Origin: a virus
DNA length: 54,059 nucleotides
Direction: 5' to 3' (one strand)
IMG/VR virus record: IMGVR_UViG_3300042292_001176
Span: 1-54,059 of that record
A model generated the notes under the pieces. The model ran no database searches and was not told where the DNA came from. It saw only the letters and a program-made list of their open reading frames with translations. This document shows, in pieces, positions 1-54,059 of the stretch. Each line of letters opens with the position of its first letter. Position 1 is the first letter of the stretch. Both the position numbers and the translations under genes were made by a program.

Positions 1-90
1 GAAGATGGCGGGAGAGGGGCAGTCCTCGGCCAGGTACGGATACCCAGAGGTGTAGTGGGCGAGGAGTTCGGTGCTGTTCTTCTGGTCCAT
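1..90 (-). CDS. 5' part of a small hypothetical gene that crosses the window ends
   Basis: ATG at 90 reads leftward for exactly 30 codons (MDQKNSTELLAHYTSG...) to base 1 without a stop. The upstream sequence gives a GGAGACAG ribosome-binding site, the same type used by its neighbours. If the ends are joined, the frame continues at 54059 and stops at 53991, making a 52-residue protein ending PPADNN. No family is recognised; it is acidic with no membrane segment. The same strand, the uninterrupted frame and the normal gene length support the junction. Confidence 0.7.
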   Translation of the reverse strand, partial: MDQKNSTELLAHYTSGYPYLAEDCPSPAIF

Positions 91-170
91 TGTCGGCTGT
101 CTCCGCAGGGATGATTTGGATGGTGTGTCATGCTCCCTGCAAGGACATGAAACACCGAGTGAAAGAGAAA

Positions 171-201
171 CCCTCCGCTCCCCCGTTAAGGGGAGGGAGG
201 G
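171..201 (-). terminator. Hairpin terminator downstream of the 222-413 gene
   Basis: Stem of CCCTCC plus CTCCCC (one bulged G at 177) pairing with GGGGAG plus GGAGGG at 190-201. On the minus strand it is followed by TTTCTCTTTC (170-161). It lies between the stop of the leftward gene at 222 and the next leftward start at 90. Confidence 0.7.
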
Positions 202-221
202 CGTGGGGGAAAAGATGCTGG

Positions 222-413
222 TCAACGGCGGCTGCGCTCGATGAGCGCAAGACGTTCGTCCTGCTCGGCGTCCTTGGCGAGCTTGTCCTCGCGGGCCTTG
301 CTGCGGCGGTAGCTCCAGTCCTGGATGGACTGGATGCCGAACCCGATGGCGAAGACCAAACCGGTGGCGAGGATGGCGGAGCAGACGATGATGATCAGGG
401 TGTGCTTGTCCAT
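222..413 (-). CDS. Small membrane protein, function unknown
   Basis: 63 residues beginning MDKHTLIIIV. One strong transmembrane segment spans about residues 5-27, followed by a highly charged tail (SYRRSKAREDKLAKDAEQ) that probably forms a cytoplasmic helix. The start at 413 is chosen because the membrane segment follows at once and GAGACAAACA lies just upstream, resembling the leaders of neighbouring small genes. It is flanked by hairpin terminators at 171-201 and 489-519, so it behaves as a separate cassette of the leftward arm. No family recognised. Confidence 0.75.
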   Translation of the reverse strand: MDKHTLIIIVCSAILATGLVFAIGFGIQSIQDWSYRRSKAREDKLAKDAEQDERLALIERSRR

Positions 414-519: not shown

Positions 520-538
520 CAGTGGGGGGGGGGATCGG

Positions 539-931
539 TCAGAAGTGGTCGGCGGCCAGGTCGGGCGGCGGCGGGGCGTACTTGAACCCGTCGTCGACCC
601 AGTTGGTGTCGGCGGGGACACCGTCGAACGGATCGAGTCCGAGTGCCGAGTCCGACTCCTTCACCACGGGTTCGGTCGCCACGTTGTGGGTGGTGACCGC
701 CTTCAGGGTCTCGATCTCGAACACGACCACGGCGACCTTGCTGCCAGCTGGTTGGACGGGGTGGTCCTTGGCCAACAGTTCGGCGATGCGGTTGGCGTCG
801 CTCCACCATCGGGCGAAGGCGATGGGGGTGATGAGCTGCGTCACCCGCATCAGGCGGAACGGGTTCTCCGCCGAGAAGGTGCTGCTCGTGGTCTCGACGA
901 CCGAGGCGATCATGTAGTTCATTTCCGTCAT
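539..931 (-). CDS. Hypothetical protein, early leftward arm
   Basis: 130 residues (MTEMNYMIASVVETTSSTFS...). The start at 931 has a well-placed AGGAGA. A longer reading upstream would run through the intergenic leader and is unlikely. The sequence has no membrane segment or known motif. It has a compact alpha/beta-like core with FARWWSDANRIAELL and VAVVVFEIETLKAV stretches, and an acidic tail ending PPPPDLAADHF. It is followed by a terminator at 489-519 and preceded by one at 1022-1053, so it is another self-contained cassette. Function unknown. Confidence 0.8.
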   Translation of the reverse strand: MTEMNYMIASVVETTSSTFSAENPFRLMRVTQLITPIAFARWWSDANRIAELLAKDHPVQPAGSKVAVVVFEIETLKAVTTHNVATEPVVKESDSALGLDPFDGVPADTNWVDDGFKYAPPPPDLAADHF

Positions 932-1322: not shown

Positions 1323-1777
1323 GTGCGTACTCTCCAATTTCTTAGCCGTCCCTATCCCAGGGGAACTCCCCCTGACGACAGGACTCCCTCACCCCATGCA
1401 GCAACGCGACCCCCGCCAAACCGCGGCTTTCCCGCGGCTTCGACCCGCACTACCCACGCTGTAAGCCGCCATACGCACCCGTACAGACACCGAACAGACC
1501 CCCCCAAGCCCCCGCGCGGGCGTGTCACTCGACGGGGGAAAGACCATTTTTGTCTGGCAATTTGTGGTCAAATCCCCCCACTGACAGGTCCAAGCCAAGT
1601 GGACTGACAGGTTCCCGAAACCGCCCCGGGAACCCGATCCCGCGCCACGAGCTCCAAACGGCCCTTTCTCTCTCTTCTTCCTCCTACTGACAAGACTGAC
1701 AGATATAGAGAGAGAGATAGGGGTAAGAGATATATAGAGAGATAGTTGTGGCCGAAAGCTGTCAGTCCGGTTTCCTG
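1323..1777. other. Non-coding region with iteron-like repeats; candidate replication origin
   Basis: No convincing gene lies in these 455 bases. ACTGACAG occurs at 1580-1587, 1603-1610 and 1695-1702 on plus and at 1759-1766 on minus, with partial copies ACTGACA at 1686-1692 and CTGACAG (minus) at 1775-1781. A purine and AT-rich tract at 1701-1745 contains two related blocks, AGATATAGAGAG and AGATATATAGAGAG, in an otherwise GC-rich genome. A near-copy of the genome decamer (CCCCCCACTG, 1574-1583) overlaps the first iteron. Its place beside the SF3 helicase gene fits an origin of the kind recognised by P4 alpha-like proteins. This is inference; a promoter region for the leftward small genes is the alternative. 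Confidence 0.5.
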
Positions 1778-3205
1778 TCAGCCCAGATCGTCCTCTTGGT
1801 CCTTCTTCAGCGAAAGTCCCCCCAACGCCCGCGTACCTTCGGCACCTTTCCTGATCCTGCTGAGATCCCAGCTGCTCTCCGCCACAATTTTCATCATCAG
1901 CTGGTTGTCAGCCACGTGCATCTTCACGTTATTGGCCCTGCACCAGTCCTTCCACTCCCGCCGCACCAAATCATTTGCGACCGCCCCCTCCTTGTTCCGG
2001 ACGAACCGGGCCTCCAGGAAGTAATCGAACGGGTTGTTCGCCAGGTGATAGTCCTTGACCACCCGCATCCCGCCATCAGTGGGGGTGAACTTCTCTCCGT
2101 CCGGAGCCGCCTCCAGCTTGATCGCCCCCCGGAGGGCCCAGTACGCGATCCCCGCCAGCTCACCCTTCAGCACGTCCATCAGGTTGTGCTGCTCCTTGCC
2201 CTCGAAGCTCCGGTCGAACGGCAGCACCAGCATCTTCCCGCTCAGACCACGGCCCTTGTTCGGCAGCTGAGGGATCTCGTTCGACTGGACCCACGGCGCC
2301 GCGTTCACGACCACGTTCCGCATCTGCCGCTTGTACTTCGCATTGATCGAGATCGGGTCCCTTCCGAGCACGTTCTTCAGGACCCGCACCGCCACCTCGC
2401 CCTCCCGGGAATCGAGTTCACTGACCTCCGAGATGCACAACACCCTCGCGAACTCCAGCCCATCCAGCCCGAAGTTCCCCGCGATCTCGTCCAAGCTCGT
2501 GCCCACGAACCCGGTCCCGCCCACCAACCACCGCATCACCGTGCTGATCGTTCCCTTGCCAGCCCTGATCTTCCCGTGAAACAGCATCCACTTCGCGTAC
2601 CTTCGATGACTCATCATCGAGTAGCCCATCCACCGCTGCAGCAGCTCTTTCCAGAGCGTATCTCCGCCGCTCCACTCCTCTACGCACTTTGTCCACCGCG
2701 GACACTCCACAAACGGATCGAGATCCACGTCCACGACGCACGGATCGAACCACTCCGGCGTCCGGGGCACACACACCAGAGCCCCCGTCTCCGCACTCGC
2801 CTTCACGTCCACGATCACGTCCCGGAACGACACGGAACAGTGGGGGTCGCTCAACCGGTCCCGGTAATCCGGGCACAGCCACTGCGGAACCTCCGCCCCC
2901 GCGACCCGGCACAAGGCCTGCATCGCCCTCACAATCCCGTTCACCTTGAACTCCGTCGGCCCGTACCGCTCCACCACGAGCCCGTTCGGGTCGTCGCTCA
3001 CGTGCAGATCCTCGGTCCAGCGCCAGACCGCGTCCTCTAGCCACTGCTGGTCCCGCTGCACCCACTTGCCGCCGTACCACTCGAACAGCCGGCCCTGCAC
3101 TTCCTTCAGCCCCATGCCGTCCTCGAAGCACACCTTGAGCATCGCTCTCGCGACCTTCATTGGTTCCGTCGTTCTCAACGGGTTTTGTTGTGTACCCAGT
3201 GTCAT
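1778..3205 (-). CDS. Superfamily 3 (D5/P4-type) replicative helicase
   Basis: 475 residues. Walker A is GKIRAGKGTI (211-220), Walker B lies near RVLCISEVSEL (254-264), and the SF3 motif C with its sensor asparagine lies near NVVVNAAPWVQSNE (297-310). The block before Walker A (LLQRWMGYSMMSHRRYAKWM) matches the D5 N-terminal helicase signature of virus and phage primase-helicases. The N-terminal 180 residues do not look like a full prim-pol or TOPRIM primase, so only helicase activity is supported. It should unwind DNA at the origin. The start at 3205 has GGAAGGAT upstream; ATG at 3160 is an alternative. It is the first gene of the leftward arm, divergent from 3233, and carries two plus-oriented copies of the genome decamer (2077, 2838). 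Confidence 0.88.
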   Translation of the reverse strand: MTLGTQQNPLRTTEPMKVARAMLKVCFEDGMGLKEVQGRLFEWYGGKWVQRDQQWLEDAVWRWTEDLHVSDDPNGLVVERYGPTEFKVNGIVRAMQALCRVAGAEVPQWLCPDYRDRLSDPHCSVSFRDVIVDVKASAETGALVCVPRTPEWFDPCVVDVDLDPFVECPRWTKCVEEWSGGDTLWKELLQRWMGYSMMSHRRYAKWMLFHGKIRAGKGTISTVMRWLVGGTGFVGTSLDEIAGNFGLDGLEFARVLCISEVSELDSREGEVAVRVLKNVLGRDPISINAKYKRQMRNVVVNAAPWVQSNEIPQLPNKGRGLSGKMLVLPFDRSFEGKEQHNLMDVLKGELAGIAYWALRGAIKLEAAPDGEKFTPTDGGMRVVKDYHLANNPFDYFLEARFVRNKEGAVANDLVRREWKDWCRANNVKMHVADNQLMMKIVAESSWDLSRIRKGAEGTRALGGLSLKKDQEDDLG

Positions 3206-3232: not shown

Positions 3233-5545
3233 ATGGCCCAGCCGCTTCGCAGCATGAACCCTTCCACTCCCTTTGGTCGCGAGAAGAACGCTCTTCTTCA
3301 GACCGACCTCCGGGATCCGAACGCCTTCCTGGGCCAGTTGATCGCCCGGAACGCCGCTGTTTCCGCGCCGGCAGCCCCGAAGCCCAAGAAGGCCGAGCCC
3401 CAGCAGCAGGCACAGCCTGCCACGCCACCTGCGACTCCTACTTCTCCGACTCCGCAGCCTCCCCAGTCGCGCCCGACCCCTCAGCTCGCCACGTCCTTCG
3501 ACGCTCAGCGCAAGGCTGCCCGCGACGCATACGACGCCGAACTGGCCGGCTTCTCGCAGCGTTCACAACAAGGCAACCAAGTCACCCCGCTCGAGCAGAA
3601 GCGCGCACTGGAGCGCTACAACAACCAGCTCGGCCGGATCAATGCCATCGAAAACAAGGGGATCAGGAAGAAGCGCGGCGAACAGCTGCGGAGCGAACGA
3701 CTTGCACGTGAGAACTACGCCGACGAACGAGCTGGTGCGATCTTAGACGAATCGACAAAGCGCTTGACTTCGTTGTTCGATTCTACACCAAAGCCTCCGG
3801 CTGTCAACATCCCGGGCCCCGCAGATCGCGCCGCGATGGCCGAACAGATGGCCGCGAACGACGCACAGCGCGCAGCCGCCGACCGTCTTCCGACTCCCAC
3901 CACGCCAGCTCCTACCCAGCCTAGCTGGCTGGACACCGCCATCTTGCGTACGATCGACCTGCTTCAGGCGGGTATGGCTCGTACCCCCACTGCTCAGCTC
4001 TCCGCTGTCGCCGCCCCAGCCGCAGCACCCCAGACCAGTGGGGGTGGCATGCCTGAACCGCCCCAGCGCTACGGTCTGGATCCCGGCGTCAACAAGGTCA
4101 TCTCCAACCTTTACTCCGGCAACGTCGCCCCGGGCAACCTGGGCATCGACCAGCTCGGCGAACTCATGCGCGGCGCCACCCCGCAGCAGCTTGCTTCGCT
4201 TTACGACGGGCTGCAAGCGCTTCCGCCCGAGCAGCAGAAGGCTGCGCTCCAGAAGATGATCGAGCAGAACCAGCAGCTGAACGTCAATCTGGGTCAGCCT
4301 CCGAAGGTCACCCCGGAACAGGCTGCGGAGATCGACCGGCTGAATCCTCCGGCGTCGTTCTTCTCCATGGACGGCTTCAACAACCTGGCCCAGGGATTCA
4401 CCGACCTGACCCAGAACCCAGTGCTTCAGACGATCGCTGGCCCCGGCGGCCTTCTCGGTACCAGCCTGCCGGCCGACGCCATCGCCCGTGAGCGAGCCAT
4501 GGCAACCACCCCGGAACAGCTCCGCATGATCCAGGCCCGCGAGGCTCAGGCCGGGATGCAGGGCGCGCTCCTCGACGCCCTTGGTGCTGGCGCCGCCATG
4601 CGGGGCAGTGCCGCCCCCAACATGACGGCCCCCGGCACCCGCGTCATCGACAACCCCACCCTCCGCGGCCAGACCCCGCCGACGTTCCGTGGACCTGGCG
4701 CAATGAACCCCAACGTGATGGATGTCACCCCAGGCCGTCCCGCCAAGCCTGTGACAGTGATCCCTGGAAACCCTGGCCAGGTCATGGACATGCCGGCGCC
4801 TCAGGCCATGCCGGGCGTCACGCCCCGCGATCTGCCGACAAACACCGGTGGACCCCGCCAGGGACCAATGCGCCCCATCGGCCCTGTGCAGACGGCCGAC
4901 GAAAGCTTCACGGCTCCGACCGTCAGGGTCAAGAATGTTCCGGGGGACATCAACAACCCCACGGCCCAGCGCCGCACTGAGCAAGGCGGTCGTGTTCCGG
5001 CGTCTCCCACCGGAAGAGAGCAGGGCCCAGGCACTGCCGCAGCCGAGGGCCAGATGCGTGTCCGTAGGTCAGACGCCCGTGTTCGCGAGCTCCGGGAACA
5101 GGATCGAGTCACCGACATCATCAACAACCTGATCGATCGCGGTGTTCTCCAGCCCAACCAGCCTGCCACCAGCACCCCCGAAGCCAAGCCCGCTACCGCC
5201 CCGGCTCCGGCCACCGAAACGGCTCTTGCTCAAGTTGCCAAGCCGGCAACACCGAAACCGGCAGCTGAAGCTCCGATCCCGCTCGCTGAACCCAGCGGCA
5301 CCACGGTCGGCCGCAACACGGTACAGGCCACCACGGTCAAACCACGCGCTACCCCGGCTCCTGGCCAGAAGGCCCAGTCCCGCAAGTCCGTCACCGAGGC
5401 CCTCAAGGCCTACGGAACCAAGGTCGTCGAGGATACCCGTGCACTCCTTGCCAAGGACCGCAAGGGCCAGGTCACCGACTCCGACGTTCTTGAGTACCTG
5501 CAGGGCCTGCTCCCCACCAAGGAATCCAAGGCAAACCCTCAGTAG
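3233..5545 (+). CDS. Large Pro/Ala/Gln-rich protein, probably virion-associated
   Basis: 770 residues. Start ATG 3233 has GGAG six to nine bases upstream. Residues about 60-85 are rich in Pro, Thr and Gln, and 90-180 look helical and charged (KAARDAYDAELAGF, RALERYNNQLGRI). Long Pro/Ala/Thr linkers fill the middle and C-terminal third, and the last 50 residues form a more compact helical end (DSDVLEYLQGLLP). No enzymatic motif is seen. It opens the rightward virion arm, and composition and place suggest a structural or ejected protein, but no family is recognised. It contains an inverted pair of the genome decamer (3983 minus, 4036 plus). Confidence 0.82.
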   Translation: MAQPLRSMNPSTPFGREKNALLQTDLRDPNAFLGQLIARNAAVSAPAAPKPKKAEPQQQAQPATPPATPTSPTPQPPQSRPTPQLATSFDAQRKAARDAYDAELAGFSQRSQQGNQVTPLEQKRALERYNNQLGRINAIENKGIRKKRGEQLRSERLARENYADERAGAILDESTKRLTSLFDSTPKPPAVNIPGPADRAAMAEQMAANDAQRAAADRLPTPTTPAPTQPSWLDTAILRTIDLLQAGMARTPTAQLSAVAAPAAAPQTSGGGMPEPPQRYGLDPGVNKVISNLYSGNVAPGNLGIDQLGELMRGATPQQLASLYDGLQALPPEQQKAALQKMIEQNQQLNVNLGQPPKVTPEQAAEIDRLNPPASFFSMDGFNNLAQGFTDLTQNPVLQTIAGPGGLLGTSLPADAIARERAMATTPEQLRMIQAREAQAGMQGALLDALGAGAAMRGSAAPNMTAPGTRVIDNPTLRGQTPPTFRGPGAMNPNVMDVTPGRPAKPVTVIPGNPGQVMDMPAPQAMPGVTPRDLPTNTGGPRQGPMRPIGPVQTADESFTAPTVRVKNVPGDINNPTAQRRTEQGGRVPASPTGREQGPGTAAAEGQMRVRRSDARVRELREQDRVTDIINNLIDRGVLQPNQPATSTPEAKPATAPAPATETALAQVAKPATPKPAAEAPIPLAEPSGTTVGRNTVQATTVKPRATPAPGQKAQSRKSVTEALKAYGTKVVEDTRALLAKDRKGQVTDSDVLEYLQGLLPTKESKANPQ

Positions 5546-5570
5546 GGGCTGGGTCCAACAGCCCAGCCCC
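5545..5570 (+). terminator. Perfect hairpin after the first rightward gene
   Basis: GGGGCTGGG (5545-5553) pairs with CCCAGCCCC (5562-5570) around an eight-base loop, starting at the last base of the stop codon. There is no T-run, so it may slow transcription or protect an mRNA end rather than terminate fully. Confidence 0.45.
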
Positions 5571-5598
5571 CGTACCTAAGGAAGCCTCCCAGATACCT

Positions 5599-5997
5599 TT
5601 GACCATCCCGCTTCCGCAAGGTTTCAAAGCGGTTCGCATGATGGGTACGCCGGAAGCCCGTGCCGAAGGAATGCTGGCTTACGGTGTCGTCAATCCAGAG
5701 ACCGGAAAAATGGGGGGGCAGATTGTTTTTGTGTGGAACCCAGCCAACAGGATGTACCAGCCTTCTTGGCCAGGGGTGAACCTGTACCATTACGAACAGA
5801 ACAAAGGTCTTTACCCGGCATTCTTGAAGGAGGTCTCCAAGTATGTCGACATCGGATCCTCGGGGACATCCAAGGAAGCAGGGTCCATGCCGAACGCACT
5901 CAAGGTCTGGCGCAAGCTCGGTGCTGTTGAAGAGCAGGTGGTAGAGAATGAGTCCCTGAGTGGTCCACGAGCCTTTGTGCTGCGGAGGAAGAAGTGA
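5599..5997 (+). CDS. Hypothetical protein, weak acetyltransferase-like look
   Basis: 132 residues from a TTG start at 5599; ATG at 5638 is the alternative, and neither has a clear ribosome-binding site. The body reads as alpha/beta (GKMGGQIVFVWN, LYHYEQNKGLYPAFLKEVSKY) and ends with PNALKVWRKLGAVEE, which resembles the C-terminal end of GNAT acetyltransferases. That similarity is only impressionistic because no clear acetyl-CoA motif is seen. Its stop overlaps the GTG start of the next gene (GTGA), so the two are translationally coupled. Confidence 0.7.
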   Translation: MTIPLPQGFKAVRMMGTPEARAEGMLAYGVVNPETGKMGGQIVFVWNPANRMYQPSWPGVNLYHYEQNKGLYPAFLKEVSKYVDIGSSGTSKEAGSMPNALKVWRKLGAVEEQVVENESLSGPRAFVLRRKK

Positions 5998-9623: not shown

Positions 9624-9954
9624 CGACCATTCGACCATCGACGAGGCCATCGAGACGATCAAGCGTCTCCGCCAGATGATCCGAAAGGTCTCGTACGTTC
9701 CCGCCATCAAGGAAGAGATCGAGAACATCAACCCGGCCGCGATGTTCATCGACGGCATGGACGACGCCATCATCGGCTACGCGATTCAGTGGGGGTCTCC
9801 CGCCCTGGTCGTGTACGACGCCGAGCGCATCATCGAGATCCTGTCGAAGGACATGGGCTACGAGGACGCCTCCGAGTTCTTCAGCTTCAACATCGAGTGC
9901 GCCTACGTCGGCCCCGGGACTCCGCTGATCCTGTACCGGCCGGAGCCCGAGTGA
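9565..9954 (+). CDS. Conserved small phage protein before terminase
   Basis: 129 residues from ATG 9565 with an excellent AGGAGG. The N-terminus is helical (IEHRLEVMREYYP, IDEAIETIKRLRQMIRK). The C-terminal half has the arrangement MDDAIIGYAIQWGSPALVVY then DAERIIEILSKDMGYEDASE and FFSFNIECAYVGPGTPLIL, which recurs in hypothetical proteins of many phages. The compact alpha/beta fold has no known activity. It ends in a TGATG overlap with the terminase gene and carries a decamer copy (9787) read as Q-W-G. Confidence 0.82.
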   Translation: MPVGDIEHRLEVMREYYPSDDHSTIDEAIETIKRLRQMIRKVSYVPAIKEEIENINPAAMFIDGMDDAIIGYAIQWGSPALVVYDAERIIEILSKDMGYEDASEFFSFNIECAYVGPGTPLILYRPEPE

Positions 9955-11915
9955 TGGAGATCAAGCGGATCCAGAGCCGGGAGCAAGGCAACGACAACTA
10001 CCCGCTACCGCCGGACTACGACACCCTCACCAAGGATGGTCAGCGTCTGGCTCGGGTCAACGCTTGCCGCCAGTGGCTTCTTCACGAGGACGATCTCGAG
10101 GTCCGTGGCAACAACCTCGTGGCTTCCGTGTGGTGGTTCGACCGCTACTACCTCTGGCCCGATGACGACGCCGACTTCAACCCGCTCTTCTACGACGACA
10201 CGCCCCTGGAGACCCCGGACTTCCACTGGGTGCTGCTGCGGCAGTGGGCCTCGTACCGCTTGACGGCGGCCGTCGCTCCCCGTGGTTCCGCGAAATCCTA
10301 CCTGAACTGCAAGGACATGCTGCTCCGCCTGATCACGCGGCCGGCCTACTCCTTCGTGTACGCGACCTCCACGCACCCGAACGCGCGCGAGGTCGGTGAG
10401 CGCATCAAGCGCCAGCTGATTCACAACCAGCGGATCCACGACGACTTCTCACCCGAGTTCGATGGGCGCATCGTTCCACGCCGCGGCGAAGGCTCCTTCA
10501 GCACCGAGCACATGATCCTCAACAACGGGTCCTGGCTCCGGCTCCTGAGTGCCTCGTCGAAGCAGCGTGGTGGCCGTCCCCGTCGCTACCGGCTGGACGA
10601 CCCCGAGTACGATCCCAAGTCCTCGACTCCGATGTCGGTGCTCCGCGCCTACATGGACGAGCTCCTCTTCAAGATCGTGATCCCGATGGTCACGCGCCCT
10701 GACACCGGCGTGGACTGGGTCGGCACGTTCGTGTCGAAGCGCCACTACCTGTGGCATGCGATGCAGACCGAAGACACCCCCGAAGGCCTTCTTGCCAAGG
10801 ACGCCCGCTTCAACCGCTGGGCCCGTCTCGTGATCCCCGCTGCGATCGAGGACGATGGCAAGCTGATGTCGTGCTGGCCGGACATGTGGCCCACCTCCCG
10901 GGAGGAGCGTCTCGAGAAAGCCAAGACCCGCCCCCGCTTCAAGGAGGCCCTGTCGCTGGAGGAGATCCGCGAGACCATCGGTAGCTCCAACTTCGCCTCC
11001 GAGTACATGGCGTCCCCCGGCGACGGCACCGACTCGTTCTTCGGCGAACTCGACCAGCAGAAGCACGGCTGGTGGTACGAGGAGATCGACGACCATCTCG
11101 ATCAGCCGCTGTCCTCCACTACGCACATCTGCTGGTACGAGCGGAACGGCGAGAACCACGAGCTTCGGAGGATGCCGATCCAGGACTTCCTTAGGTCCTA
11201 CTGCCGCACCTTCATGACCTCGGACACCTCGCACACGTCCGGCAGCGACTCCGACTTCAAGGTCGTGTGCCTGATGGCCGTCACCCCGCAGAACGACCTG
11301 TTCGTCCTCGACCTCTGGGCCCGCCAGGGCCAGGAGTCTGAGCTGGTCCGGGCCACCTTCGAGATGGCCGACCGTTGGCGCTGCCCCACTGTACACCCCG
11401 AGGCCATCCGCCAGGGCGTCTCGCTCTACAACGCGCTCCAGTCCATCGTCTCCACCCGCGCCAACGACATGGCCGGCGTGGCCCACCTGCCCAAGATCGT
11501 CAAGCTGAACCCCGGCATGGCGGAGAAGCAGGACAAGATCGCCGGCCTCCAGTTCCGGTTCGAGCACGGCAAGATCAAGTTGCCCCTTTGGCGCCGGTCC
11601 CAGCTGCCGTGGCGCCACCTCTTCGACCAGGTGGAGTCGTTCAACCCCGAGGCCCAGGACGGCGGCCTTGAGAAGGACGACTGCATCGACGCCGTCGCCA
11701 TGTCCCAGTTCGTCCTGCGGGGCCGTCTGGCCAAGCCCCCAGGAGCCGCAGCCGACAAGAGCCTGTTCGAGCGCCTGCGGGACGGCGACTTCTTCGACAA
11801 CGGCCGGCACATCGGCGAAGGCCTCAATATCGACAGCCTGACCGCCCAGCAGATCCACGAGATCTTGGATGCACGAACCCCACACCCAACAACCACAAAG
11901 ACAAACAAGATCTGA
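9954..11915 (+). CDS. terL: Terminase large subunit (packaging ATPase-nuclease)
   Basis: 653 residues. The N-terminal ATPase has Walker A APRGSAKS (108-115) and a likely Walker B around RYRLDDPEYD (211-220). The C-terminal RNase H-like nuclease begins at TFMTSDTSH, with FKVVCLMAVTPQNDLFVLDL as its core strands and a late acidic motif KDDCIDAVAMS. It should drive DNA into the prohead through the portal and cut the concatemer. The start overlaps the previous stop (TGATG). The C-terminal tail is Thr/His/Pro-rich and not conserved. Gene order TerL, portal, scaffold, capsid fits. Cutting style (headful or site-specific) cannot be told from the sequence. Confidence 0.93.
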   Translation: MEIKRIQSREQGNDNYPLPPDYDTLTKDGQRLARVNACRQWLLHEDDLEVRGNNLVASVWWFDRYYLWPDDDADFNPLFYDDTPLETPDFHWVLLRQWASYRLTAAVAPRGSAKSYLNCKDMLLRLITRPAYSFVYATSTHPNAREVGERIKRQLIHNQRIHDDFSPEFDGRIVPRRGEGSFSTEHMILNNGSWLRLLSASSKQRGGRPRRYRLDDPEYDPKSSTPMSVLRAYMDELLFKIVIPMVTRPDTGVDWVGTFVSKRHYLWHAMQTEDTPEGLLAKDARFNRWARLVIPAAIEDDGKLMSCWPDMWPTSREERLEKAKTRPRFKEALSLEEIRETIGSSNFASEYMASPGDGTDSFFGELDQQKHGWWYEEIDDHLDQPLSSTTHICWYERNGENHELRRMPIQDFLRSYCRTFMTSDTSHTSGSDSDFKVVCLMAVTPQNDLFVLDLWARQGQESELVRATFEMADRWRCPTVHPEAIRQGVSLYNALQSIVSTRANDMAGVAHLPKIVKLNPGMAEKQDKIAGLQFRFEHGKIKLPLWRRSQLPWRHLFDQVESFNPEAQDGGLEKDDCIDAVAMSQFVLRGRLAKPPGAAADKSLFERLRDGDFFDNGRHIGEGLNIDSLTAQQIHEILDARTPHPTTTKTNKI

Positions 11916-26959: not shown

Positions 26960-28137
26960 TGAGCCAGTTCAACGGCAACTTCGGAAACTTCGGACCCGGG
27001 TCCTACGACCCCGTGTCGTCCCTTCTCCCCAACTCCCCGATGCAGGGAGCGCAGCCTCAGCGTCAGCCCCGAAGGGCGGGCCAGCAGGTCTCGATGCAGC
27101 AGCCCCAGGGCACCAGAACCAACCGGCAGTGGCAGCCCTACACCGGCGGCATGACTGCCCAGCAGCCCGGCAATCCCTATCGCTCGTCGAACGGTCCAGC
27201 CCGTCAGATCGGCCAGAGCAGGATTGACCAGGGCTTCCTGAACTGGGACCAGGCGCTGGCTGGCGCGATGGGCCAGGACATGGCGAACCAGCAGGGCGCG
27301 ATGAACCAGCAGTTCAACCAGATGAGCGGGCAGATCGGCCAGTACGAAGACGCTCTGCAGCGCGGCATCGGGACCATGCAATCAGTGGGGGTGCAGCAGC
27401 GTGACGCGCTCCAGGGTCTCGCGGGCGGCCTTGAGCAGCAGGGCCAGAAGGGCTTCGACGAGTTCAAGGCGTTCCGCGACCAGCAGATGGGGCGGGTCGA
27501 TCAGGACATCTCGAAGGCGAACCAGTTCGCGGCCCAGGCAACCCAGAACTACGAGCAGGCCATCGGCGAGTTCAAGGACACCAGCGCCCAGGACGCGGCG
27601 AATGCGGCGTTCGGGATGCGTCGGAACGCGCAGGAGCAGATGTCGCAGATCGACATGCTCGATGTGGATCCGGGACAGAAGGCGGCGCTGAAGCAGACGA
27701 TGATGCAGGACGTGAGCAACCAGGTCACGCAGACGGTGACCGGCATCTACAGCAACATGAACCAGACCATGGCGTCGATGCGCGGGAACCTGTCGAGCCT
27801 GATGGGTGCACAGTCGCAGACGGCGATGGCCGGCGGCCAGCTCCGGGGGCAGATGGGTACCAGCTTCGGAGCCCAGACGCTGCAGTCCCAGCAGATGAAC
27901 CAGCAGATGATGGAGCTGGGGACGAACGTCCGGATGATGGGTGAGCAGGCGTACGCAAGCGCGATGCAGCAGTCGGTGGTCTTGGAGCTTCAGGGTCGGA
28001 CCACGGTGGCCCAGATGATCCAGGAGAACCCACGGCAGTTCGTCAGCATGTTCGCCGGGTTGACCGGGTACCTCGCGGGCGCGACCACGCCGGGCATCAA
28101 CCAGATCAGTGTGCCTAACTTCGGAGCCATCGCATGA
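26959..28137 (+). CDS. Gln/Met/Gly-rich internal virion protein candidate
   Basis: 392 residues from ATG 26959 (TGATG). The first 90 residues are Gln/Pro/Asn/Gly-rich and disordered; the rest is one long helical region with many Gln, Met and Ala (AMGQDMANQQGAMNQQFNQM; MNQQMMELGTNVRMMGEQAY), lacking Cys. A weakly hydrophobic C-terminal segment (FAGLTGYLAGATTPGINQI) could insert in membranes. Position directly after the nozzle matches the internal/ejection proteins of podoviruses. A decamer copy (27383) is read M-Q-S-V-G-V-Q in the helix. Confidence 0.72.
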   Translation: MSQFNGNFGNFGPGSYDPVSSLLPNSPMQGAQPQRQPRRAGQQVSMQQPQGTRTNRQWQPYTGGMTAQQPGNPYRSSNGPARQIGQSRIDQGFLNWDQALAGAMGQDMANQQGAMNQQFNQMSGQIGQYEDALQRGIGTMQSVGVQQRDALQGLAGGLEQQGQKGFDEFKAFRDQQMGRVDQDISKANQFAAQATQNYEQAIGEFKDTSAQDAANAAFGMRRNAQEQMSQIDMLDVDPGQKAALKQTMMQDVSNQVTQTVTGIYSNMNQTMASMRGNLSSLMGAQSQTAMAGGQLRGQMGTSFGAQTLQSQQMNQQMMELGTNVRMMGEQAYASAMQQSVVLELQGRTTVAQMIQENPRQFVSMFAGLTGYLAGATTPGINQISVPNFGAIA

Positions 28138-46364: not shown

Positions 46365-48428
46365 TCAGGTGTAGATGGTGCGTTCGTAGCGGATCGGAAC
46401 AGATCGACCCAGCAGCTGGCACAGTCTAGCCCAATATCCCTGGGTTGTCACGTAGGTGAAGGCGTCACGGAACAGGGTGTCGAGGCGGTCAACAGCGGTG
46501 TCGCTACGGCAATCGAAGTAGATGGCGTCGTACACGTTGAGGAACATGAGGATGTCAGGGGATGGTGCGTTGATGGAGGGGAGGGTGCGGTGCAGCTGGT
46601 GCTGGATGCGGAGCAGGACGTTGCCGGCCGTGCATTGGATGGGCATGTTCACGATCTCGGAGATGTCGTAGGCATCGCCACCCATGAAGCGACGGGACTG
46701 CCCGATGAGGGGGAGCGCCACGTACCCACGGGCACGGGTCTCCCGGATCAGGGTCTCTTGCCAGTGCCACAGGCCAGGGCGCGAGGCGGAGCGGGTCTTC
46801 ACGATGTTCTCGCAGATGGACATGGGCACGACGACGCCGGTCATCTTGAAGACTTGGGTCTGGAGGGTGGGCGCGCCGGCACGGAAGAGGTCGCCGAAGT
46901 TGGCACCCTTGGCGGCCTGGCGGTACACCTTCTTGAAGTCAGGGTTCTCCTTGATGTCGGGCCCGAAGACCTGGACGGCACGGCTGGTGTGCAGGTCGAG
47001 GGGTGGGTCGGCACGGAAGGCAGCGAGGAGGTCGGCGTCACCGGATAAGAGGCCGGCCACGACCATCTCGATCTGAGACAGGTCGTACCCGACGATGTGG
47101 CCCCGGGTCCAACGGCTCCGGTAGAACTTCTTGATCTCGTCGGGGTCGGTCTGATGCCGGAAGTTCTTGCAGGTGATGCGGCCCTGCAGGGTACCACCCT
47201 CGCCGCCGGCCCCGTCCTTCGAGGCAGTGGGGGTGACGAACCACGTGGGATAGGAGACCCCCACTGGACTGTTGGGCCGGGCCACGAGGCGGGAGGATTT
47301 GTTGGTGGGGTCCATCCGCTGGTGACGGAGCAGCGGGTAGAGGTAGGAGGAGAGGAGCTTCTGGTGGGAGGAGTAGGTGCCGAGCAGGTTGAGCTGGTCC
47401 GCGAGATCAGTGGGGGGCTGGAAGCTGAGGAAGAGCTGGCGGTTCACGTCGTTGACCGCGATCTCCTTCTTGGTTTCGGTGAGCTGGAACAGGGGGTGGG
47501 ATCGGATGGCCGGGTCACGGTTGTGCTCGATCCAGGTGCAGGCCGATTGCATCAGGGCCAGTTTGGACTTGGCACTTCCTGGCCCGGTGAGTACGAGTCC
47601 GAGGGAGGCAGCGGCATCTTCAGCATCCCGCATCCGGGACACCACGGATTGCTCGAGTTCGGATAGGCCCGCCCGGTCCATAGGCACTCCTGATTCCGAC
47701 ATGCGGACCACTGTCCAGATGGTGTCGGAGTAGTGGGTGATGCACTCGGGCGAGAGCTTGTCGGTGTCGGGGTAGTCGGTGCGGATCCGGCGGCCGAGTT
47801 CGGTGCAGGCAAGCAGGGTGTTGTGGGTGTCGGCTGCGTTGTACCGGTGGAGTTCGGGGTCACGGGCGTCGTGGTATTTCTTGTCACGGTCGAGTTGCTC
47901 CTTGGGGTAGGCGTGGGTTCCGAGGATGGGACCGAGGGCTTTGAGTGAGCGCTCGGGCCGGAGCTCGGAGTGCAGGTAGTTGAGGACCGAGAGGTCGATC
48001 AGGGTTTGGTGTTCGAGGTGGAAGCGGAGGTCGGGCTGGGATCGGAGGTACAGGAGGTCGAACTGCAGGTTCATTCCGAGGATGGTTCGGGAGTGGGCGA
48101 GCCATCGGGCGAGGTGCTTGCGGTGGGCGGGGATGTGAAGCTGGAAGACGAAGGTGGGACCGGGACGGAGGTGGGCCAGGTCACCATCACGATCGGCAAC
48201 GGTGACGGAAACGGTTTGAACCAGATCGCGGATGGGGCATCCGTCCACGTCGACGGATCGAGCGGGGTGGAAGACGGACTGGGTGGGGAGGAGTCGGCCG
48301 GCTGCGGTGAATCGGGTGATGCCATAGGTCTCGATGTCCAGGCTAATGGTGCGGGGGTCGGGGCGGCTGGATGTCGGGGTCGGTGGGGACAGGGGCGCAG
48401 CCACGGATGGTGGAGGAGAGGAGTTCAA
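46365..48428 (-). CDS. Family A DNA polymerase with 3'-5' exonuclease
   Basis: 687 residues. Exo I DIETYG (31-36), Exo II NLQFD (120-124), Exo III YNAAD (196-200). Polymerase motif A YDLSQIE (448-454), motif B RQAAKGANFG (503-512), NMPIQ (594-598), motif C NVYDAIYFD (631-639), in which Tyr and Ala replace the usual His and Glu while the catalytic Asp634 is kept. It starts at TTG 48428 with GAGG, overlapping the UDG gene by 86 bases; the first 26 residues are Ser/Pro-rich. Replicates the phage genome with the SF3 helicase. An inverted decamer pair (47225, 47257) sits in a Gly-rich loop at about 388-405. Confidence 0.92.
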   Translation of the reverse strand: MNSSPPPSVAAPLSPPTPTSSRPDPRTISLDIETYGITRFTAAGRLLPTQSVFHPARSVDVDGCPIRDLVQTVSVTVADRDGDLAHLRPGPTFVFQLHIPAHRKHLARWLAHSRTILGMNLQFDLLYLRSQPDLRFHLEHQTLIDLSVLNYLHSELRPERSLKALGPILGTHAYPKEQLDRDKKYHDARDPELHRYNAADTHNTLLACTELGRRIRTDYPDTDKLSPECITHYSDTIWTVVRMSESGVPMDRAGLSELEQSVVSRMRDAEDAAASLGLVLTGPGSAKSKLALMQSACTWIEHNRDPAIRSHPLFQLTETKKEIAVNDVNRQLFLSFQPPTDLADQLNLLGTYSSHQKLLSSYLYPLLRHQRMDPTNKSSRLVARPNSPVGVSYPTWFVTPTASKDGAGGEGGTLQGRITCKNFRHQTDPDEIKKFYRSRWTRGHIVGYDLSQIEMVVAGLLSGDADLLAAFRADPPLDLHTSRAVQVFGPDIKENPDFKKVYRQAAKGANFGDLFRAGAPTLQTQVFKMTGVVVPMSICENIVKTRSASRPGLWHWQETLIRETRARGYVALPLIGQSRRFMGGDAYDISEIVNMPIQCTAGNVLLRIQHQLHRTLPSINAPSPDILMFLNVYDAIYFDCRSDTAVDRLDTLFRDAFTYVTTQGYWARLCQLLGRSVPIRYERTIYT
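47225..47266. repeat. Inverted decamer pair in the polymerase gene
   Basis: CAGTGGGGGT (47225-47234) and ACCCCCACTG (47257-47266), 22-base spacer. They encode the loops N-S-P-V-G-V-S and V-T-P-T-A-S of the polymerase, in a poorly conserved stretch before motif A. Confidence 0.92.
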
Positions 48429-52064: not shown

Positions 52065-52928
52065 TCAGGAGTTGAGGTAGCGCTGGTAGGACTCGTCGTT
52101 GATGAGTTCGCCCGTGCCGCTCCAGTAGCGGTCCTCGATCTCGTCCTCGCGGGCATCGTCGATGGCATGGCAGATGCCGTCGAGCATGGTGGAGAGACGG
52201 GCGGTGCGACGCTGCGACTCGGCGGGAGAGTCGGTGGTCTTCTCGACCTCGGTGAAGGCGTTGAAGAGGGACCACAGGTTGCTGCCCTTGAGGGAGTTGT
52301 GTCCGCCGGGTCCGTCCTCACGGTTGAACTCGTGCCAGACACGGGGCAAGAGACGACCGTTGGTGGCGCCCTTGGTGAGGGCGGTCATGCACAGGTCGGC
52401 AGCGGTACGGCGGACCTCGACGGGTTCAGTGCCGAGGATCGTGGTCTTCCACCGATCGATCTGCCGCTCGGTGTCGGCGAAGTAACCGGGCAGCTCGGCG
52501 ACCTTGTCGATGCACAGGCGGGGGAAGTCACGGAGGATGAACGTGGTGTGCTTGCGGGAGAACTTGACCACGGCATCCGAAGCACGGAAGGCCAGGTTGT
52601 CGCAGACGAAGACGCGGGAACCGAGGGCGGCTTGGGCTGCGAAGCGGTGGCGGTGGGAGTTGCGGAGACCGAGGACGTGGGTGAAGTCACCGGTGGGGGA
52701 GACGCGGTCGAGGGTGATGACACCGAAGTAGTCCTCGCCAGCCTTGCCCATGAGACCGTGCTTCTGGTCGGTCACGGTGTACCCGTGGTAGGCCAGGGCC
52801 TCGAGCACCTGCTCGAGGAAGTAACGGTGCGAGATGGGCACGTGGGTGGCGGTGGGCTTGGGGGTCACGACGTTGGTGATGTCGGCGAGAGAGGCGGAGT
52901 AACCGCCGGCGTGGAGCATGAGGCTCAT
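52065..52928 (-). CDS. DUF932-like conserved protein
   Basis: 287 residues. HVPISHRYFLEQVLEALAYH, YFGVITLDRVS, HVLGLRNSHRHRFAAQAALG then RVFVCDNLAF and FSRKHTTFILRDFP form the layout of DUF932-type proteins, common in phages and plasmids and of unproven function. An acidic C-terminal helix follows. ATG 52928 has GGAGACAGCAA and an ATGA overlap with the preceding gene. Confidence 0.72.
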   Translation of the reverse strand: MSLMLHAGGYSASLADITNVVTPKPTATHVPISHRYFLEQVLEALAYHGYTVTDQKHGLMGKAGEDYFGVITLDRVSPTGDFTHVLGLRNSHRHRFAAQAALGSRVFVCDNLAFRASDAVVKFSRKHTTFILRDFPRLCIDKVAELPGYFADTERQIDRWKTTILGTEPVEVRRTAADLCMTALTKGATNGRLLPRVWHEFNREDGPGGHNSLKGSNLWSLFNAFTEVEKTTDSPAESQRRTARLSTMLDGICHAIDDAREDEIEDRYWSGTGELINDESYQRYLNS

Positions 52929-53179
52929 GAGTTGCTGTCTCCGAAGGGCGATTCGTTGGGAAGCCAGACCCGCTGCCCCTTCTTTGCAGCGGAGATGGCG
53001 ATGGCCTCGCAGAGAGCGCGAGAACCAGAGAGGAGGATCTCGAAGTCGAAGTTGTCACCCTTGTCCTCGAGAACAGAGACAAGGTAGAAGGCGGTCGGTG
53101 GCATGTCCGGGTCACGGAGCAGCCCCGCCTTGTGCGGGGTGAAGATGACGAAGTCTGTGGGATTGAACGACGGTTGCAC
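52925..53179 (-). CDS. Hypothetical 84-residue protein
   Basis: Start GTG 53179 with GGAGGACA directly ahead. VQPSFNPTDFVIFTPHKAGL, AFYLVSVLEDKGDNFDFEIL, GSRALCEAIAISAAKKGQRV: an alpha/beta domain resembling WGR- or DUF-type small folds, ending in NESPFGDSNS. The longer upstream frame is Ser/Pro-rich noise and is left out. ATGA coupling with the DUF932-like gene. Confidence 0.72.
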   Translation of the reverse strand: MQPSFNPTDFVIFTPHKAGLLRDPDMPPTAFYLVSVLEDKGDNFDFEILLSGSRALCEAIAISAAKKGQRVWLPNESPFGDSNS

Positions 53180-53923: not shown

Positions 53924-53941
53924 GGTGGGTCCAAAGAGAAA

Positions 53942-53972
53942 CCCCCTGCACCAAACGACTCGGTGCAGGGGG
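53942..53972 (-). terminator. Terminator after the gene that crosses the ends
   Basis: Perfect 11-bp stem CCCCCTGCACC (53942-53952) with GGTGCAGGGGG (53962-53972), nine-base loop; TTTCTCTTTGG follows on the minus strand. Confidence 0.82.
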
Positions 53973-53990: not shown

Positions 53991-54059
53991 TCAGTTGTTG
54001 TCGGCGGGCGGGAAGAGGCCGTTGAGTTGGGCGACGAAGGCGTCCACGTTGCACTCCTG
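53991..54059 (-). CDS. 3' part of the small gene that crosses the window ends
   Basis: From 54059 leftward the frame reads QECNVDAFVAQLNGLFPPAD then NN-stop (TGA 53993-53991), 22 codons plus stop. Read from ATG 90 through base 1 to 54059 it forms one 52-residue protein. Its terminator follows at 53942-53972. Function unknown. Confidence 0.7.
   Translation of the reverse strand, partial: QECNVDAFVAQLNGLFPPADNN

Follow-up and report, generated by a model that had tools for sequence, protein, structure and literature searches.

The window analysed here, which is the whole of virus record IMGVR_UViG_3300042292_001176 and measures 54,059 bp, is very probably a nearly complete metagenome contig of a circular map of about 54.55 kb, interrupted by one assembly gap of about 0.49 kb within a single gene. 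Related viral contigs set its two ends side by side on one strand, identify them as the two tails of the same gene, and carry the core of that gene between them, as 492 bp in the closest relative (G001) and at the equivalent place in all eight relatives that span the join. The full genome would amount to about 54,551 bp, of which the window would represent about 99%.

Judged from its genes for a terminase, a primase, a family A DNA polymerase, a PD-(D/E)XK-type exonuclease and a Sak4-like ATPase, the window is a tailed phage. The large terminase subunit, used as the criterion for Caudoviricetes, is encoded at 9954..11915 on the plus strand (phrog_38, E=3.8e-37 for the frame 9789-11915), and in a PHROGs scan of eight large plus-strand frames the terminase alone matched at E<=0.001. 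The minus strand bears a primase/helicase-like gene (1778..3205; phrog_6088 DNA primase, E=1.5e-45; Pfam DUF5906, E=4.4e-8), the family A DNA polymerase gene (46365..48428; phrog_17, E=1.7e-46; Pfam DNA_pol_A, E=9.4e-18) and a conserved gene of unknown function (52065..52928). The primase, matched by 13 viral contigs at 84-100% identity, served as the left anchor for finding relatives across the join. The conserved gene (66-99% identity by tblastn in all eight join-spanning contigs) was the right anchor, and the polymerase the second right anchor.

The gene cut at the ends of the window

The primase and the polymerase, used as queries against viral contigs, hit 13 and 19 loci, which come from 27 contigs (G001-G027), and both ends of each contig were mapped onto the window. 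Eight contigs cross the join (G001, G004, G005, G009, G010, G011, G020 and G023). By their mapped ends the other 19 stop short of it, including G026, whose far end is unmatched and which was judged by its 729 bp upstream of the polymerase. All eight spanning contigs lead, in one orientation, from left-side DNA into the right-arm genes. On the left side, G001, G004, G005, G010 and G011 contribute the primase itself, G020 and G023 DNA matching window 167-228 and 95-220, respectively, and G009 the non-coding region next to the primase; G009 and G020, both of which are cut in that region, reach their primase over their end repeats. Seven further contigs bearing the core (L071, L072, L075-L079) were left out of the spanning count, as the fetched flanks held the core without the primase of the window or its 52065-52928 gene, L078 matching the small gene at 222-410 weakly (32%). 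The cut gene may be an accessory gene common to several phage groups.

The closest relative, G001 (IMGVR_UViG_3300043464_002133, 27,910 bp), follows the gene order of the window from 36.3 kb through the ends to 9.8 kb, and its matched pieces are 93-99% identical in DNA on both sides of the join. The alignment runs from window position 528 to 1, continues with 492 bp of G001's own and resumes exactly at 54059 downward; the stretches touching the join are 97.9% and 95.8% identical to the window. Unlike the window, G001 possesses in these 492 bp the core of a gene, and they unite both tails into one open frame of 216 codons. On the minus strand, window 1..90, with the ATG at 88-90, corresponds to the first 30 codons (88/90 nt identical to G001 codons 1-30), and 53991..54059 to the last 22 codons and the TGA (69/69 nt identical to the 3' end of the G001 gene). 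The window thus keeps codons 1-30 and 195-216 and is without codons 31-194 (164 codons, about 492 nt) between 54059 and 1. A search for the core elsewhere in the window did not find it (best tblastn match E 0.62). The original prediction had held that the genome is complete at about 54,059 bp and continuous through the ends, and had itself named extra sequence in a relative as the result that would speak against this; G001 carries exactly such sequence, and the claim of a gap-free join is not supported. Apart from the join, a few spots vary between the two genomes: window 529-928 has no close match in G001, window 5531-5991 is absent from it, and near window 48,985 it is G001 that is longer, by about 0.2 kb.

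The missing 164 codons would encode the conserved, predicted folded core of the gene. Nine residues are invariant in an alignment of eight homologous proteins, and all of them except Met1 map to the missing part. AlphaFold modelling of the G001 protein assigns residues 31-160 mean pLDDT values of 80-97 per ten-residue block, with pLDDT <50 at residues 1-29, 167-198 and 210-216. The 216-codon protein of G001 belongs to no Pfam family, a fold search of the PDB with the cut-gene protein gave nothing at E<=0.001, and PHROGs searches with eight members of the cut-gene family yielded one weak match for one member (phrog_1629, E=0.079), which we did not use. An intein or mobile insert was considered as the missing piece and rejected, as the core is present in all eight spanning relatives and it is the tails that vary in length and sequence.

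The frame that drew attention to the join is real. On the minus strand it reads from the ATG (88-90) to the TGA (53991-53993), 159 nt or 52 codons plus stop, with 30 codons from the ATG to base 1 and 22 codons and the TGA from 54059 to 53991, and it codes for MDQKNSTELLAHYTSGYPYLAEDCPSPAIF/QECNVDAFVAQLNGLFPPADNN (30-codon part/22-codon part). The perfect terminator announced behind it was likewise found: just downstream, at 53933..53972 on the minus strand, we read by eye a terminator-like hairpin with a perfect 11-bp stem (arms 53942-53952 and 53962-53972), a 9-base loop and a T-rich tail, TTTCTCTTT following on the minus strand. G001 retains this hairpin, and DNA matching it lies behind the core-bearing gene in G023 (L047:1738-1802, window 53981-53920) and in G009 (1899-1962, window 53980-53921). 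The product, in contrast, is not the normal protein it was taken for. Compared with the relatives, the small 52-codon "gene" across the join reads as two tails of one larger gene, the first 30 and last 22 codons of 216, and it should not be annotated.

Nor does the frame, taken alone, say much about closure. The prediction had put the chance of keeping strand and frame as modest, and such joins prove to be common. In a simulation that removed a random 1-1000 bp from the minus arm (4000 trials), an ATG-started frame crossed the scar in 92% of trials, and in 60% the longest such frame had at least 29 codons before and at least 22 after the scar; the corresponding values for the plus arm, with frames sought on the minus strand, were 71% and 32%. 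Indeed, another and longer frame, of about 44 + 171 codons, also crosses the window's own join. If only the true gene frame is counted, the chance would be one in three. In a G+C-rich genome, an in-frame join of contig ends is therefore weak evidence of closure, for 60-92% of random minus-arm excisions would pass, and relatives or reads are needed to establish it.

The cut gene also has a leader hairpin, an inverted repeat at 105..140 on the minus strand (134-140 paired with 105-111) that lies immediately before GGAGACA and the ATG. Such leaders precede small genes located in the primase-to-join interval (leaders at window 105-140, at about 425-465 and at 951-993, all on the minus strand), and similar hairpins stand upstream of the cut gene's homologues in relatives (L005, L006, L011, L012, L017, L043 and L047). 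They typically consist of a GCAnGG...CCnTGC stem enclosing a C/A-rich loop (CCAACCCAAAC) and followed by (G)GAGACA and the ATG, and in many cases a terminator lies ahead of them. Ten leaders, two of them from this window, were aligned; at the fourth stem position the pair is C-G (5), U-A (4) or G-C (1) and 100% of counted cells pair, figures to be read with five of the six pairs invariant and the stems picked for pairing; the third window leader (951-993) uses other arms and lies outside the alignment. A stem of this kind was present at 36 of 105 GAGAC..ATG sites, pooled and related to one another, vs 10 after shuffling. Rfam gave no family at gathering score for the leaders. A different inverted repeat, GAAGGG...CCCTTC at window 52943-52982 (minus), ends within one base of the GGAGAC before gene 52065-52928. 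It recurs at the equivalent place in L005, L006, L012, L017, L035, L043 and L047, and in L006 and L017 its arms differ yet stay complementary.

A circular map with one probable gap

The original prediction had called the genome circular or circularly permuted. The circular map stands, although the frame argument is not what supports it: all eight spanning contigs bridge the ends, and all four full-length relatives (>50 kb) close on themselves by terminal direct repeats of 99-248 bp. G009 (IMGVR_UViG_3300043786_001648, 52,795 bp; repeat 161/162 bp) and G020 (IMGVR_UViG_3300031787_000166, 53,104 bp; repeat 246/248 bp) are both cut in the non-coding region near window 1.4 kb. G010 (IMGVR_UViG_3300044613_003454, 52,813 bp; repeat 190/191 bp) is cut near 12 kb, just past the terminase 3' end (about 11.9-12.1 kb), where its 191-bp repeat closes it, and G011 (IMGVR_UViG_3300020205_001870, 50,796 bp; exact repeat of 99 bp) is cut near 32 kb. 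Full-length relatives that are cut at different places, three in all on the map, and that close by terminal repeats point to a circular map on which the two ends of the window are neighbours. By the same token, the leftward arm does run through the ends as had been proposed, a claim upheld by the eight spanning contigs and not by the frame. GC skew keeps its sign over the ends of the window (500-bp bins: 0.29 and 0.28 for the final two full ones, 0.18 and 0.18 for the opening two).

These four relatives resemble the window in their circular gene order and in having the core-bearing gene at the equivalent place, and they measure 50.7-52.9 kb without the end repeat. They differ from it in their terminal repeats (162, 191, 99 and 248 bp for G009, G010, G011 and G020), whereas the window has none. 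No exact end-to-end repeat of 8-399 bp was found, and blastn between the two 1.5-kb ends of the window gave no match >25 bp, the longest being 25 bp at 80% and not terminal. The completeness rule described for CheckV looks for a repeat of at least 20 bp at both ends (PMC8116208), and the window does not pass it. According to the part of that paper dealing with such repeats, including the legend of Extended Data Fig. 3, assemblers appear to break circular templates at random, leaving repeats of k-mer length, e.g. 55, 77 or 99 bp (PMC8116208).

We favour an assembly gap as the explanation of these ends. The assembler would have stopped inside one gene, leaving about 0.49 kb, the coding sequence of the folded core, unrecovered, and the contig ends would then be map neighbours each bearing one tail of that gene. 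The gap size is taken from one close relative, and that the window's own virus also has the core is what we infer. Among the causes of broken contigs, the description of COBRA includes simulations of repeats, of regions shared between genomes and of within-population variation (PMC10914622). In an assembly gap the tails would stay in frame by chance, because 492 = 3 x 164. This multiple-of-three length is a point that speaks against the gap, as it has a one-in-three chance for a random gap and is expected for a selected in-frame deletion.

Such a deletion would make the window a gap-free circle of 54,059 bp, from a virus in which an in-frame deletion had truly removed 164 codons, leaving a remnant product of 52 residues. 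The join preserves both frame and stop codon and is flanked by the leader hairpin and the terminator, yet in-frame joins are common after random excision, all eight spanning relatives retain the core, and the remnant would consist mostly of the low-confidence tails of the AlphaFold model. A contig end lying exactly on the deletion scar would moreover be a coincidence, and the window does not have the end repeat present in the four full-length relatives. We therefore consider a true deletion improbable. Far less probable still is that the ends are unrelated ends of a linear fragment that agree in strand and frame by chance. Although the window has no end repeat and in-frame joins arise easily by chance, eight of eight spanning contigs set both ends adjacent, and the alignment with G001, with only 492 bp between them, already refutes this possibility. 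An exact 25-base search of viral_contigs for the window's own junction gave no match, which is neutral between the explanations. On the preferred reading of an assembly gap, the record is best handled as a circular map about 99% complete, with a single gap.

The non-coding region beside the primase

Between the stop of the primase (1778) and the ATG of the next gene (1322) lies a non-coding region, 1323..1777, that we tentatively put forward, at somewhat less than even chances, as a replication or packaging pivot of this phage group, that is, as a candidate iteron origin or fixed genome end. All five RCTGACAG sites of the window fall within 1580-1782 (203 bp), the last overlapping the primase stop, split three to two between the strands and grouped around a TATATAGAGAG-like AT/TC-rich tract. 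Their number is at chance level (5 vs 4.8 expected in the whole window), and it is the clustering in 203 bp that matters. Sites with the seven-base core CTGACAG in the matching region account for 4/4 of those in G009, 2/2 in G010, 4/4 in G011 and 1/3 in G020. A conserved 22-bp block, AGACAAAAATGGTCTTTCCCCC (1534-1555, minus), is kept with small changes in relatives.

The detrended cumulative GC skew of the window peaks at 1,026 and has its trough at 27,215, 48% of the 54.55-kb circle apart, with a range of 1907 vs a largest value of 1020 in 500 block shuffles (window only). In all five genomes the peak lies about 0.55-0.85 kb from the CTGACAG sites (the skew of G011 being weak), in the relatives at about 0.65-0.85 kb and on the same side. 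The trough lies about half a genome from the peak in three of the five: its distance round the circle is 51% in G010, 52% in G020, 59% in G009 and 19% in G011, the last with a weak range of 689. The cumulative GC skew of the window turns at about 1.0 kb and 27.2 kb, not at the gene-strand switches near 3.2 and 37.5 kb; AT skew roughly tracks the gene strand across the window. Were the region an origin, continuous synthesis would produce the C-rich strand, contrary to the pattern usually seen in bacteria; were it a genome end, replication would begin around mid-map.

Contig ends gather in the same region. Of the 13 contigs with a primase, six have an end in the 900 bp behind that gene, vs 0.43 expected (Poisson P 6e-6), and at one conserved block the starts of G009, G020 and G023 lie no more than about 30 bp apart; the start of G009 was placed inside the non-coding region by direct alignment, the extrapolated position of 1819 being poor. 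A stable DNA hairpin at this cluster of ends was unsupported (z = 0.62). These ends, together with the fact that both ends of G009 and G020 lie in or just past the region and that the cumulative GC skew peaks within 1 kb, would fit linear virion DNA without circular permutation whose fixed ends lie at about window 1.3-1.6 kb, the ends of the window then being an unrelated assembly break. This bears on the physical form of the DNA only and is compatible with the assembly-gap explanation. We regard fixed ends as possible and rather doubtful. The spot was picked after the ends were seen, and there are other accumulations of contig ends at 37.8-39.4 kb (7) and 46.7-48.7 kb (9), in part due to the use of the polymerase as query. 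Moreover, the window and G001, G004, G005, G010 and G011 run unbroken through the region, G002 and G003 continue for about 0.4 kb beyond it before ending, and the homopolymers and repeats there could break assemblies. The region at 1.3-1.8 kb may thus serve as an origin or a packaging end, or may just be difficult for assemblers.

Comparison with known phages

Isolated phages in INPHARED gave no DNA match in "near" mode (window 1-24000 and 34000-54059 searched), and the terminase had no tblastn match among them. A host search in genome_contigs brought up 20 candidate stretches for the terminase and six for the primase, none of them a relative. What INPHARED phages share with the window is a distant family A polymerase only, at 21.6-25.7% identity in five records that include two Vibrio and two Rhizobium phages. 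In the BFVD, one uncharacterised phage protein, A0A6J5S1Z0, resembles the product of the cut gene in fold (E=3.6e-10).
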